Origin: an uncultured bacterium
Lineage (GTDB): Bacteria; Cyanobacteriota; Vampirovibrionia; Gastranaerophilales; Gastranaerophilaceae
Assembly (NCBI GenBank): GCA_902795965.1
Contig: CADBNI010000046.1
Coordinates: 1-36,829, forward strand
Direction: 5' to 3'
Length of the DNA stretch: 36,829 nucleotides
A model generated the notes under the pieces. It saw only the letters and a program-made list of their open reading frames with translations, had not been told where the DNA came from and did no database searches. Of this stretch, positions 166 through 33,688 are shown in pieces. The stretch's first letter is position 1, and every line of letters begins with the position of its first letter. The position numbers and the translations under genes are program-made.

Positions 166-882
166 TTACCAAGGATAGTCTTTCTCGATTTTCCACCCGT
201 CATGCATAATTAATGCTCCGCAGTATGTACCTGCAGAAGTTGTTGCAGTTTTTGAACAACCATACTTCCCTGATGTTAATGTTGTTCTGTCATTACCTTG
301 ACCTAACATATATAATCCGCTTTTATTAAAATTACCCCAAATATCATTTCTTGATTTATTAGATATTACAATGTCAAACCAATCTATACCTACTTTATTC
401 GGACCTTTCTTGCCGTTCAAATCAGTATAAAGTTCAACAACAGTTTCGCGTGGATAAAACGCAACAACAGTCCCGTTTGCAAGTACAATATTGTATGTTT
501 TTAAATTGCTAAAATTGAAAGTTGCTCCATTTGGACGAGTAAGATTTTCTGCCCAACATTCTGAAACTGTACAATCTTTTGCAATTTTCATATACGGTTT
601 AAGGTACTGTTCAAAAAATGCTTTTCCCTTGCTATAACAGTCATTAGCAGTGTATGATGATGTATTCGGTATCTCCCAGGTTTCCAAAAGTCCGTTTTCG
701 GTTTCTGACATTCTGACGGCTTGATAAAGGATACTGTATGTTTGTTTAAGGCGATTTACTGTTTCACGCTTTTGGTAATTTGCAATTAATGTCGGCAAAG
801 TCATTGCCGAAACAACTCCGATTATGCCCAATGTTATCAATACTTCTGCGAGTGTAAATGCTTTAGCATCTTTTTTGTTCAT
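166..882 (-). CDS. type IV pilin-like protein A (prepilin-type N-terminus)
   Basis: The 238-aa protein starts with a short basic leader (MNKKDAKA) followed by FTLAEVLITLGIIGVV. This is the class III prepilin signal: cleavage before Phe, Glu at +5 and a hydrophobic helix that packs into a pilus or pseudopilus core. Residue -1 is Ala instead of the usual Gly. The C-terminal part has two cysteines and the ending GWKIEKDYPW, shared in form (GWKI..DYP) with the pilins at 23847 and 32924. The ATG at 882 has a GGAG Shine-Dalgarno and a TTGACA-18-TATAAT promoter. It is divergent from the XRE regulator at 1040. Whether it is a major pilin, a minor pilin or a type II secretion pseudopilin cannot be told from sequence. 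Confidence 0.85.
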   Translation of the reverse strand: MNKKDAKAFTLAEVLITLGIIGVVSAMTLPTLIANYQKRETVNRLKQTYSILYQAVRMSETENGLLETWEIPNTSSYTANDCYSKGKAFFEQYLKPYMKIAKDCTVSECWAENLTRPNGATFNFSNLKTYNIVLANGTVVAFYPRETVVELYTDLNGKKGPNKVGIDWFDIVISNKSRNDIWGNFNKSGLYMLGQGNDRTTLTSGKYGCSKTATTSAGTYCGALIMHDGWKIEKDYPW

Positions 883-3624: not shown

Positions 3625-4425
3625 ATGTCAAGAAAACCTATTATTGCAGGAAACTGGAAAATGAATTTACTTCAATCCGAAGCTAAATCGGTATTTGAAG
3701 GTGTTAAAAATTTCGTAAAAGATTACACTGCGGTAGAATTGCCGACAATCGTAATCGCTCCCGTATTCACATCAATTTCTGCAGTTCATTCGGTCTCATG
3801 CGACTGTGGCTGCGGCGGTAAAAAAATCGCTATTGCGGGTCAAAATTGCCACTGGGAATCTTCAGGCGCATTTACGGGTGAAATTTCCGTTGAAATGCTT
3901 AAAGATGCAGGTTGTGATTACGTAATTATCGGTCACTCCGAAAGACGTCAATATTTCTCTGAAACAGATGAAATGATTAACAAAAAGGCAAAAGCAATCT
4001 TGGCAGGCGGTTTGATTCCGATTATCTGCTGCGGTGAAACTCTTGAACAAAGAGAATCAGGCGTAACGGATTCTTGGATTGCAGGTCAAATTAAAGCAGC
4101 TTTGGAAGGAATATCTTCTGACGATGTTGCAAAATCCGTAATCGCTTACGAACCCATTTGGGCAATCGGAACAGGAAAAACCTGTGATGCTGATGAAGCA
4201 AACAGAGTAATTGCAATGATTAGAAACGTTGTAAAAGAAGTTTCCGGCAGTGAAGCCGCTGATTCAATCAGAATTCTTTACGGCGGTTCGGTTAAACCTT
4301 CAACAATCGAAGAACAAATGTCAAAATCGGATATTGACGGAGCTTTGATTGGCGGAGCTTCTTTGAAAGCCGAAAGTCTAAACGAAATTATCGAAAAAAC
4401 AATGAAACTTTCATTGGTTCACTAA
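3625..4425 (+). CDS. tpiA: triosephosphate isomerase
   Basis: It interconverts dihydroxyacetone phosphate and glyceraldehyde 3-phosphate in glycolysis and gluconeogenesis. The 266-aa TIM barrel has all the signatures: AGNWKMN with the catalytic Lys, IIGHSERR with the electrophilic His, AYEPIWAIGTGKT with the catalytic Glu and the flexible loop 6, and the phosphate-binding ILYGGSVKP and GALIGGASL. It is slightly longer than usual because of a small Cys/Gly-rich insertion (SCDCGCGGKK, about residues 57-66) before the conserved GQNCHWE. It ends at a bidirectional terminator. eno lies 1.5 kb downstream on the other strand, with an XRE/pilin pair between. Confidence 0.97.
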   Translation: MSRKPIIAGNWKMNLLQSEAKSVFEGVKNFVKDYTAVELPTIVIAPVFTSISAVHSVSCDCGCGGKKIAIAGQNCHWESSGAFTGEISVEMLKDAGCDYVIIGHSERRQYFSETDEMINKKAKAILAGGLIPIICCGETLEQRESGVTDSWIAGQIKAALEGISSDDVAKSVIAYEPIWAIGTGKTCDADEANRVIAMIRNVVKEVSGSEAADSIRILYGGSVKPSTIEEQMSKSDIDGALIGGASLKAESLNEIIEKTMKLSLVH

Positions 4426-4442
4426 TTTAAACTCAAATATTT

Positions 4443-4469
4443 AAAAAGGCGGATTTATTCCGCCTTTTT
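4443..4469. terminator. bidirectional terminator between tpiA and XRE B
   Basis: An 11-bp perfect stem AAAAAGGCGGA / TCCGCCTTTTT has a 5-nt loop and a T tract on each strand. It overlaps the stop codon of the convergent regulator gene at 4455. Confidence 0.85.
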
Positions 4470-4796
4470 TAGTGCTTTAAAATTTTTTTTGAGTGATTTC
4501 AAAACATCAAGATAAATTTTTAATTCCGTATCATTGGCATTTTTTAAAATATATGCAATATCATCTTTAAGATAATTCTCTTTAATTTCGTTTTGATAAG
4601 TAAAATCAGAAAGTTTTAAATCAAGTACGGAAATTATTTTTAAAAAACTGATTAAGTTTGGAAAATTTAATCCCGATTCAATTCTTGAAATTTGTTTTTC
4701 GTGTAATCCGACTTTTTCGGCAAGCATAAATTGAGTCATGTGTTTACGTTTACGTTTTTCACGTATTTTTTGCCCGATTAAGAGTTTTTCTTCCAT
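4455..4796 (-). CDS. XRE-family HTH transcriptional regulator B
   Basis: A 113-aa protein with an HTH_3 domain at about residues 7-62 (GQKIREKRKRKHMTQFMLAEKVG, then KQISRIESGLNFPNL). A helical tail follows, containing NANDTELKIYLDVL, which is similar in form to the tail of the XRE protein at 10978 (NATDTELIFYDN). It is divergent from the lectin-tailed pilin at 4929, and the 132-bp space between them holds a long inverted repeat. It probably binds that region and controls the pilin and itself. Small, basic and without a membrane segment. Confidence 0.88.
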   Translation of the reverse strand: MEEKLLIGQKIREKRKRKHMTQFMLAEKVGLHEKQISRIESGLNFPNLISFLKIISVLDLKLSDFTYQNEIKENYLKDDIAYILKNANDTELKIYLDVLKSLKKNFKALKKAE

Positions 4797-4828
4797 ACCT
4801 TACTTGTTACTTTCGTTGTTATAAAAAT

Positions 4829-4867
4829 AGAACATTATTGATTTATAATAAACAATATAAATGTTCT
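4829..4867. promoter_or_regulatory. operator-like inverted repeat between XRE B and pilin B
   Basis: AGAACATT (4829-4836) and AATGTTCT (4860-4867) form perfect arms, with a nested ATTG/CAAT pair inside. The site lies just upstream of the pilin -35 box and over the likely XRE promoter. Binding by the XRE protein is inferred. Confidence 0.5.
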
Positions 4868-4876
4868 TTTTTCATA

Positions 4877-4906
4877 TTGACAAAAGTAATATCTATGTAC
4901 TATTAT
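4877..4906 (+). promoter_or_regulatory. promoter of pilin B
   Basis: TTGACA (4877-4882) and TATTAT (4901-4906) have an 18-nt spacer. A GGAGG ribosome site follows at 4920-4924, directly before the ATG at 4929. Confidence 0.65.
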
Positions 4907-4928: not shown

Positions 4929-5882
4929 ATGAAAAAGTTTAACGCTTTTACTTTGGCGGAAGTATTAATTACATTGAGTATTATCGGTGTTGTTGCGTCA
5001 ATAACTATGCCTGCGTTGATTAACAACATCAAATACCACAGCTACGACAATGCAAAAAGAAAAGTCCTTAATTCAATCGGTGAAGCGGGGAAATTGCTCG
5101 CAATCGAGGGTAATATAACGGGAGCAAGTGATGCAGAAGATTTTGTAAAAAACCGTTTGGCAAACAAATTGTCGATTGCGAAAATGTGCGACAGCGCGCA
5201 TTTGTCAGATTGCGGATTGCCTTCAAAATTTTTCAAAACAGACGGCAAAACCGAAATGGATATGCCGACAAAAATGAAAGAGCAAACCGCAAATACAGTA
5301 TTCAATTATGGAACAACCGCAACCAAAGCATACGCAGATAAAAATAGCTACGGATTTGTAATGAATAACGGATATAGCGTGAACTTATTCTACAACGGAG
5401 CATGCGAACCTGATGTTAAAAACACTGCCGCAATGAATGAAAATTATTATTACTATACCCAAAACCACATGTGTTTCTTCGCAATTTATGACATGAACGG
5501 TAAGGGCGGTCCGAACGTAGTCGGAAAAGATATAGGCTTGGCAGGAGTTTATTATCCGAACGAAGAAACAAGAGCAGTAGCAGTTTTACCTGCTGACTAT
5601 GATTGGAGTTCAGCAGGTCGTGGACAGGCTCATAGCACAAGAACTTTCCAACAAGCAGGACAAGCATGTTACGACCAGTTTGGTAAGGACTATCGTGTGC
5701 CGGATAGGGACGAAATTTCCCTTATGGCTATGACAGGCAACTTGCTTGGTATATCGGGCAGTGACTTTTGGTCGGGTACGGTCTTTAATTCGGGTAAGGC
5801 TTTGAGGCAACAGTTTGGAATCGGTGCTCGCACCATAGTACCGCTTACCTATGCTCACTACGTCCGATGCGTCAGGAGGTGA
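4929..5882 (+). CDS. type IV pilin-like protein B with C-type-lectin-like (DUF1566/Fib_succ-type) C-terminus
   Basis: A 317-aa protein. Residues 1-6 are the leader, then FTLAEVLITLSIIGVV gives the prepilin signal and helix. The middle (about 40-230) is a pilin-type globular part with the GKGGPNVVGKD motif. Residues ~240-317 are unlike the other pilins here. They contain ACYDQFGKDYRVPDRDE, a DFWSGT motif and the ending HYVRCVRR, which is the pattern of DUF1566/Fibrobacter-paralog domains with a C-type-lectin fold. The last third is richer in G/C and uses CGT, CGC and AGG for Arg, while its neighbours favour AGA. The final 33 codons resemble a diversity-generating-retroelement variable region (see findings). 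It is probably a surface-displayed binding pilin, divergent from XRE B and convergent with eno. Confidence 0.85.
   Translation: MKKFNAFTLAEVLITLSIIGVVASITMPALINNIKYHSYDNAKRKVLNSIGEAGKLLAIEGNITGASDAEDFVKNRLANKLSIAKMCDSAHLSDCGLPSKFFKTDGKTEMDMPTKMKEQTANTVFNYGTTATKAYADKNSYGFVMNNGYSVNLFYNGACEPDVKNTAAMNENYYYYTQNHMCFFAIYDMNGKGGPNVVGKDIGLAGVYYPNEETRAVAVLPADYDWSSAGRGQAHSTRTFQQAGQACYDQFGKDYRVPDRDEISLMAMTGNLLGISGSDFWSGTVFNSGKALRQQFGIGARTIVPLTYAHYVRCVRR
5766..5879 (+). other. candidate DGR variable region within pilin B
   Basis: This is the 3' end of the pilin, from the FW codons to the last sense codon. By hand count the last 117 nt of the gene contain about 20% A, far below the A-rich remainder of the gene. 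Most codons in the middle end in C or T, as expected if AAC/AAT codons of a template had been mutated at their adenines. The flanks (FWSGT and YVRCVRR) match constant parts of lectin-fold variable proteins. No template repeat or reverse transcriptase was found in the window. Confidence 0.45.
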
Positions 5883-23846: not shown

Positions 23847-24608
23847 ATGAAAAAAAATACTATTAAATTTAATTATAATGAGATTACTACGTCGAATGCA
23901 AAGCATTCTCCTCGTAATGACATGAATATTTCGTGCGTAAGCACCGATAACAACCATACCTCTATCCCTCCATACCTCTATACTTCTAAAAAAACAGCGT
24001 TCACTCTCGCCGAGGTCTTAATTACTATTGGTATTATCGGTGTTGTCTCAGCAATTACAATGCCTATATTAGTTCAAAATCACAAAAAGTCAGTTGTAGC
24101 AAATAAACTTAAAAAAGCATCTTCGACTTTAATGCAGGCTTATAATATGTCGTTAATTGACTACGGTGACGGAGAAAGAGAAGGGTTTGAACCAAATAAT
24201 CCCGATACGGCTTTGGAGATGTTTAACAAATATTATGTGCCTTATATAAAATTTTTAAAAGTTGAAAAAGGTCAAAAGGGTGTTTTTGGCTATATGACGG
24301 ACGGAATGGTTTTATATTTTAGGAAAGCAGGCAGTCCAAATAATTGGGGATCTACTTATATAATTGTATGTATTGACAACAAGGCTTGTGAAAATATAGA
24401 TGAAAACGAAGATTACAAAAAAGCCGTAAACGGTAAAAATACATTCGGATTTTATATTGACGGTACAGTTCCAAGTAATCAATTAAGGAAAAAAACTCAT
24501 AATCAATTAATAGACGGATGTAAAAATCAAACCAGCGTTGAATCATGTACGGGTCTGATTTTTAAGGCGGGTTGGAAAATTCCTGACGACTATCCCATTC
24601 GATTTTAG
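23847..24608 (+). CDS. type IV pilin-like protein C with repeat-derived long leader
   Basis: 253 aa from ATG 23847, which has AAAGGA 7 nt upstream. The prepilin signal TAFTLAEVLITIGIIGVV starts only at residue 50, so the leader is about 51 residues instead of the usual 6-25. That leader is encoded by dispersed repeats: a REP-like segment (about 23880-23925) and a 4 x 8-bp CATACCTC-type array (23955-23986). The globular part ends with two Cys and GWKIPDDYPIRF, the ending shared with pilins A and D. A prepilin peptidase could still cut before Phe52, but a leader this long is odd. A start further downstream is not supported by a ribosome site. Confidence 0.82.
   Translation: MKKNTIKFNYNEITTSNAKHSPRNDMNISCVSTDNNHTSIPPYLYTSKKTAFTLAEVLITIGIIGVVSAITMPILVQNHKKSVVANKLKKASSTLMQAYNMSLIDYGDGEREGFEPNNPDTALEMFNKYYVPYIKFLKVEKGQKGVFGYMTDGMVLYFRKAGSPNNWGSTYIIVCIDNKACENIDENEDYKKAVNGKNTFGFYIDGTVPSNQLRKKTHNQLIDGCKNQTSVESCTGLIFKAGWKIPDDYPIRF
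23955..23986 (+). repeat. 4 x 8-bp CATACCTC-type array inside pilin C
   Basis: Units CATACCTC, TATCCCTC, CATACCTC, TATACTTC. The array encodes part of the pilin leader (HTSIPPYLYTS). Loss or gain of one 8-bp unit would shift the frame. Confidence 0.8.
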
Positions 24609-32923: not shown

Positions 32924-33688
32924 TTAAAATCTGATAGGATAGTCCTTGGGTATTTTCCAACCGTTAAGTTGAATTAGTGCAGTACAAAATGCCCTTTCTT
33001 TTGAAACGTCTTTTTTACATCCTATTGTATTATTGTTTCGCAACATGCTTTCAGATCCGTCCCAATTCCATTTATACGGTTCTATGCCTTTGTTACGATA
33101 ATATGTACTATTAGGAGCGAAATGGAATGTAAAAATTTTTGTACCAACATCATTTTTATTATATTGATATATGCCGTGTTCGGGCAATATAAAATTATAA
33201 TTTTTTGCATCAACAAAATAATAAATTGACATTGGTGAATATTGTGCAACGCTTCCGTCCGGAAAATATATTACAAAAAATCTTCCGTCATTATCAGAAA
33301 CCTTTTTAATAATCGCATTTTTATAATATGGCGCAATATATTTATAAAACCAACTTTCATATTTTGACTTTGAATAATCAGTATTTCCGTTTTCATCTGT
33401 AAGCCAACCGTTTTCGGGAGTTTCCCAAAGCGATTTATCTCCATAATCAATCTCCGCTCTTTGAATAGCTTGATTTGAAATTGAATAAAATCTTTTTAAT
33501 TTAGTTTCGACAACATGTTTTCGATAATTTTGCACAAGTGTCGGCATTGTTACCGCCGCAACAACACCGATAATTCCAAGGGTGATTAGGACTTCTGCTA
33601 AAGTGAAAGCAGTATTTTTAACAGAATTTCTAACGTTTGGCTCGCTTCTTAGCTGCTTAAATTTTCTTACTCCTGCAAATCGGTTCAT
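32924..33688 (-). CDS. type IV pilin-like protein D inside the aro cluster
   Basis: 254 aa. A 27-residue leader, basic and longer than that of pilins A and B, precedes FTLAEVLITLGIIGVVAAVTMP. Ala is at -1 and Glu at +5. The globular part has a Tyr/Asn-rich middle and ends with two Cys and GWKIPKDYPIRF, as in pilins A and C. The start has a GGAGG ribosome site and a fully consensus promoter. It sits between aroC and aroK and is divergent from the HTH gene at 33821, splitting the shikimate genes. Part of the leader is encoded by CTTAGCTGCTTAA-type repeat words. Confidence 0.85.
   Translation of the reverse strand: MNRFAGVRKFKQLRSEPNVRNSVKNTAFTLAEVLITLGIIGVVAAVTMPTLVQNYRKHVVETKLKRFYSISNQAIQRAEIDYGDKSLWETPENGWLTDENGNTDYSKSKYESWFYKYIAPYYKNAIIKKVSDNDGRFFVIYFPDGSVAQYSPMSIYYFVDAKNYNFILPEHGIYQYNKNDVGTKIFTFHFAPNSTYYRNKGIEPYKWNWDGSESMLRNNNTIGCKKDVSKERAFCTALIQLNGWKIPKDYPIRF

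Follow-up and report, generated by a model that had tools for sequence, protein, structure and literature searches.

The gene at 4929-5882 encodes a type IV prepilin whose tail descends from the variable region (VR) of a diversity-generating retroelement (DGR). We think it most likely that this gene is a remote DGR target now off-template, with a frozen binding specificity, and give this reading a probability of about 0.65. The gene lies in the 36,829-nucleotide stretch analysed here (the window), which forms contig C46 of a 97%-complete draft genome (1.81 Mb, 85 contigs). The features of the locus are:

4455..4796, minus strand: divergent XRE/HTH_3 regulator, 113 aa (PF01381, E 6e-10)
4807..4889, no strand: 30-nt imperfect inverted repeat (4807-4836 / 4860-4889), candidate operator/promoter of the pilin gene (repeat and promoter scan)
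4929..5882, plus strand: type IV prepilin with a C-terminal C-type-lectin-like (Lcl_C/DUF1566-like) domain, 317 aa (Pfam, AlphaFold2 model, fold matches 8q4e and 8oks)
4929..5006, plus strand: prepilin peptidase/N-methylation signal MKKFNA-FTLAEVLITLSIIGVV (PF07963, E 2e-5, residues 1-26)
5634..5879, plus strand: predicted C-type-lectin-like domain, residues 236-317 (Lcl_C residues 236-316; pLDDT; VIA-align Z 9.8-10.3)
5754..5879, plus strand: remote, off-template VR homologue (ungapped alignment with the template repeats of congeners G001 and G010)
5857..5878, plus strand: conserved VR 3' end (22 bases, 95% identity to the inferred shared template of paralogues C14, C29 and C68)

The window prepilin carries a predicted lectin-like domain

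The window protein is a type IV prepilin by its N-methylation/prepilin peptidase motif, and its N-terminus scores above cut-off in both TIGR02532 and PF07963. The protein would be displayed on a pilus, probably as a minor pilin. Three more prepilin N-termini are encoded within the window, at 709-870 (minus strand), 23988-24161 (plus) and 33491-33619 (minus). In the whole genome (G000, 1.8 Mb), the window prepilin has 135 matches at E <= 0.01, nearly all of them in the N-terminal prepilin region, so that the pilin repertoire is unusually large for a genome of this size.

We built an AlphaFold2 model of the protein from five sequences (mean pLDDT 65). Residues 241-317 have a pLDDT of about 75-87 by ten-residue blocks; the N-terminal half is of low confidence and we leave it uninterpreted. 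The best solved Foldseek match is the C-terminal domain of Legionella Lcl (PDB 8q4e; E 9.2e-5, 23% identity), to which VIA aligned the model with Z 9.8 and an rmsd of 2.0 over 91 residues. Bdellovibrio Bd2740 aligned with Z 10.3, many C-type lectins match as well, and a sequence profile of nine paralogues finds the Legionella Lcl domain with E 3.4e-5. The model therefore predicts the C-terminal lectin fold that an earlier note on this DNA had proposed, and places the VR within it; the modelled domain may bind a ligand. The note had also proposed a kinship to DUF1566, the present Pfam Lcl_C (PF07603). This kinship is borne out by the fold but not by the Pfam score, which in the window protein stays under the Lcl_C cut-off (17.1 bits versus 34.9, E 0.0068). 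Paralogue C64 scores 28.8 bits (E 1.6e-6), and the G001 homologue has an E of 3.9e-6. Since the fold agrees despite the low score, we treat the window domain as a distant relative and not as a filed Lcl_C member.

The tail aligns with templates of DGR cassettes in related genomes

The tail reads exactly as the earlier note had quoted it, FWSGTVFNSGKALRQQFGIGARTIVPLTYAHYVRCVRR. Its described composition also holds: adenine makes up 19.3% of 5766-5879 versus 35.6% upstream in the gene, and C or T is the last base in 22 of the 38 tail codons. The proposed switch in arginine codons away from AGA is weak, with AGG (3), CGC (1) and CGA (1) in the tail versus AGA (3), CGT (3) and AGG (1) upstream.

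In two congeners (G001 and G010), a homologue of the window pilin with 45-46% identity lies inside a complete DGR cassette, in the order reverse transcriptase (RT), XRE, pilin, bAvd, template repeat (TR), with tpiA next in G001. The tails of these two pilins differ from their own TRs at 10/31 and 12/31 adenines, and at 0/83 other positions in both. The G001 template, TSGNYWSASEASAELGWNQNFNNGNRNRNSKSNGNNVRCVR, aligns without gaps to the window tail, confirming the alignment to an Asn-rich template pattern that the earlier note had proposed. The motif GTCCGNTGCGTCAGGAG at the VR 3' end is common to the window, G001 and G010. The conserved segment 5857-5878 sits where known DGRs have their initiation-of-mutagenic-homing sequence, and by analogy may serve the same role.

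A gene beside the window pilin (3625-4425, upstream), which from its translation we take to be tpiA, also has a counterpart beside the G001 cassette (L094 6740-7534), on the opposite side; the outer neighbours of the two loci also differ. The minus-strand gene 3' of the window pilin is, again from its translation, presumably eno.

The family of DGR-rewritten pilins extends to three genomes of two other genera, whose TRs are adjacent to the pilin gene or elsewhere in the genome. Differences from the TR are found at 19/42 adenines and 1/99 other positions in G182, at 15/37 and 4/99 in G189, and at 14/39 and 6/98 in G091. The window pilin thus belongs to a family of DGR targets, with adenine-specific VRs in all five of these genomes. 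Among 383 sampled family genomes, one per species, the pilin family occurs in 14, an RT in 45 and both in 13 (Fisher p 2e-12, uncorrected for relatedness). In six family genomes (G246, G297, G335, G292, G200 and G333) the RT match contains one in-frame stop, hinting at repeated RT decay. We found no relatives among viral contigs, and a scan of the genome-contig collection returned four distant loci only.

Nine paralogues vary at the columns predicted by the template

The genome holds nine copies of the window pilin including the window copy, with the other eight 64-80% identical to it. The nine form one clade against the congeners' copies, with a mostly unsettled inner order, and are a single lineage-specific expansion. 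Using the G001 template, we predicted ten variable columns, the Asn columns from the conserved Trp onwards. Across the nine paralogues, these columns have a mean entropy of 2.27, compared with 0.94 in the remaining tail columns and 0.55 in the part upstream (permutation p 1.5e-5, or 5e-6 when the window copy is left out). The Asn columns of the template are the variable columns of the paralogues, so the template alignment proposed in the earlier note is correct. Together with the ungapped Asn alignment and the adenine-rewritten homologues in congeners, this column prediction identifies the window tail as a DGR VR by descent.

A mere chance likeness of a diverged pilin tail to the template motif is extremely improbable. 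The tail is just 36-38 residues long and its Lcl_C match is under the Pfam cut-off, but real templates align to it ungapped, the fold match and the column permutation are significant, and DGR-rewritten pilins of the same family in G182, G189 and G091 contradict it too.

Retrohoming overwrites the backbone, so VRs drawn from a common template should be alike at sites that are not template adenines. Three sister copies show this pattern in the third positions of their non-Asn tail codons. C14 and C29 differ at 0/26 of these versus 79/282 upstream (binomial P 2e-4), C14 and C68 at 4/26 versus 135/279 (P 5e-4), and C29 and C68 at 4/26 versus 124/279 (P 2e-3). The near-unmutated tail backbone of these copies (C14, L021; C29, L023; C68, L020) points to a recent common third template that the assembly does not contain. 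We rejected gene conversion as the source of the shared backbone, because the copies are alike in the backbone but not in the Asn columns.

The variable columns could instead be ligand-contacting residues under positive selection on the lectin binding face, with no DGR role for the window copy. Lectin binding faces generally evolve fast, and the window codons at Asn columns include AGG, CAG, GGA and GTA besides NNY. Yet the same columns are DGR-rewritten in the homologous genes of two congeners, the family is DGR-rewritten in three further genomes, and the backbone of three sister copies has been homogenised in a template-like manner, all of which make this explanation improbable.

Two DGR cassettes act in trans on dispersed genes, mostly prepilins

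The earlier note saw no RT in the window and proposed that one would act in trans. The window indeed contains no detected RT or Avd, and two DGR RT genes lie elsewhere in the genome, on contigs C48 (L001) and C10 (L002), each beside bAvd and an Asn-rich template. The RT and Avd of both cassettes score above cut-off (PF00078 and PF22296); PADLOC and NCBIfam matches place the two RTs no more precisely than among RTs in general. TR1 rewrites C42 and C44, with differences at 24/72 adenines versus 0/164 other positions, and also matches C7, with more drift. TR2 matches 11 dispersed VRs (C17, C8, C41, C25, C10, C40, C13, C6, C36, C21 and C82), which in pooled, summed rows differ at 205/440 adenines versus 33/847 other positions. 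These TR2 targets are prepilins wherever the locus includes the gene start. Between them, the two cassettes thus rewrite 13 or more dispersed genes in trans and change hardly any position but template adenines, the classic DGR signature.

Six further loci (L030, L032, L033, L038, L044 and L045) encode TR2-type lectin pilins whose tails now have about 42-52% identity to TR2, and are further off-template VRs. We found no third RT or Avd in the assembly. Weak Avd matches on C66, C38 and C8 were considered as marks of a third cassette and rejected: tblastn of those regions gave no remnant of either Avd or RT, and the C66 match sits in another frame than the intact 643-aa ORF around it.

The window copy has probably drifted away from template control

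The earlier note had proposed searching the genome for a near-copy of 5766-5882. We found no template-like near-copy of the tail, and no template whose mismatches are confined to adenines, in the 97%-complete draft assembly. We rejected TR1 and TR2 as its template, as neither gave a DNA match above noise. At non-adenine positions the window tail is as different from every template and paralogue as the remainder of the gene is, which argues that this copy has not been overwritten recently. Compared with C64, the window copy differs at 12/26 third positions in the tail and 135/272 upstream, and compared with C29 and C14 it differs from both at the third position of 14/26 non-Asn codons; neither comparison shows homogenisation. 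With no matching template and this degree of drift, the hypervariable binder that had been envisaged is not borne out for the present tail, and from its sequence the window copy is probably frozen.

Alternatively, the tail could be hypervariable now, served by a further DGR cassette with a matching template that the draft lacks. The 85 contigs of the assembly break beside several such genes, so a template for the window copy could have been lost in assembly, and the recent third template implied by C14, C29 and C68 means that one cassette component or more is lacking. The C14 contig ends in an interspersed repeat 189 bp past the pilin ORF, and the intact VR 3' end in the window means that a homing event there could be accepted. 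However, the inferred template of C14, C29 and C68 misfits the window tail at 14/26 third positions, which requires yet another template, and an extra RT or Avd was not detected. We consider a presently active window target rather unlikely. Interspersed repeats with CCCTCACCC / GGGGCGAGG-like motifs also occur near contig ends (L098 1-190, L097 after 1000, L100 end), and such repeats by these genes may account for the assembly breaks.

A divergent XRE gene faces the pilin

The regulator that the earlier note placed beside the pilin is present as a divergent XRE gene. The inverted repeat between the two genes overlaps the -35 box (TTGACA) of a good sigma-70-like promoter at 4877-4906, ahead of the pilin. 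Promoter-like sites do not exceed the shuffled count, making the operator/promoter call suggestive only; the repeat may be an operator through which XRE controls the pilin. Among the lectin pilins of this genome whose upstream sequence is intact, most face a divergent XRE gene, including those of C14, C29, C68, C49 and C54 and the majority of the TR2 type. Some non-lectin pilins likewise face a divergent XRE gene, so this arrangement is a habit of the genome's pilins and not of DGR targets alone.

Proposed mechanism and relation to known systems

We propose that genes of this type encode type IV pilins, probably minor, that would display a C-type-lectin-like binding domain on the pilus. Reverse transcription of the template-repeat RNA would introduce errors at adenines, and the resulting cDNA would be written over roughly 120 bp at the 3' end of the pilin gene, so that about 11 residues that presumably make up the ligand face would change. 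At least C14, C29 and C68 would have been rewritten recently in this way from their common template outside the assembly. The window copy would have kept the VR layout while drifting at non-adenine positions with no recent overwriting, and would be expressed under the control of its own divergent XRE regulator.

DUF1566/Lcl_C proteins, including pilin-like ones, are described DGR targets with a lectin-fold VR at the gene 3' end, as in the window family, and with a cassette of bAvd, TR and RT, as in the homologous loci here (PMC6642488). In that survey, multi-VR DGRs make up 28.6% of 948 DGRs. Unlike those targets, the window copy lacks a matching TR in the assembly and has drifted at non-adenine positions. 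A precedent is found in Treponema denticola, where strains without RT and TR keep leftover DGR target genes (PMC4891356): a VR-bearing target persists without its own template, like the window gene. The present genome, in contrast, still has two other DGRs whose VRs, rewritten at adenines, lie in other genes (prepilins for the most part), and the target itself encodes a type IV prepilin. Dispersed lectin-domain paralogues, with VR/TR homology in some and not in others, are also known among the remote variable proteins of cyanobacterial DGRs and their homologues (PMC7517822); most of those are predicted to be cytosolic, whereas the paralogues here are prepilins that face divergent XRE genes. 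The bimodular Streptococcus sanguinis PilB, which has a direct role in adhesion (PMC8179133), likewise joins a binding module to a type IV pilin. The PilB module differs from that of the window, and Legionella Lcl, which shares the lectin-like fold (8q4e), is a collagen-like adhesin and not a pilin. To our knowledge, no DGR acts on Legionella Lcl and PilB is not diversified by a retroelement. Our literature search, in which many journals were outside coverage, found no paper on DGRs in this bacterial group.

These data tie DGR diversification to type IV prepilins in several genera of one bacterial family, which appears to comprise gut-associated, non-photosynthetic relatives of Cyanobacteria, and show that a single small genome holds 13 or more dispersed targets. 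The window gene offers a testable case of VRs leaving template control. More speculatively, and with a rather low likelihood, XRE-gated lectin pilins may form a large repertoire in which several template RNAs rewrite subsets in trans and off-template copies are kept as fixed specificities, giving two tiers of surface binders, mutable and archived. If such an XRE-gated repertoire exists, it would be a form of bacterial surface variation that combines hypermutation with separate gene control.
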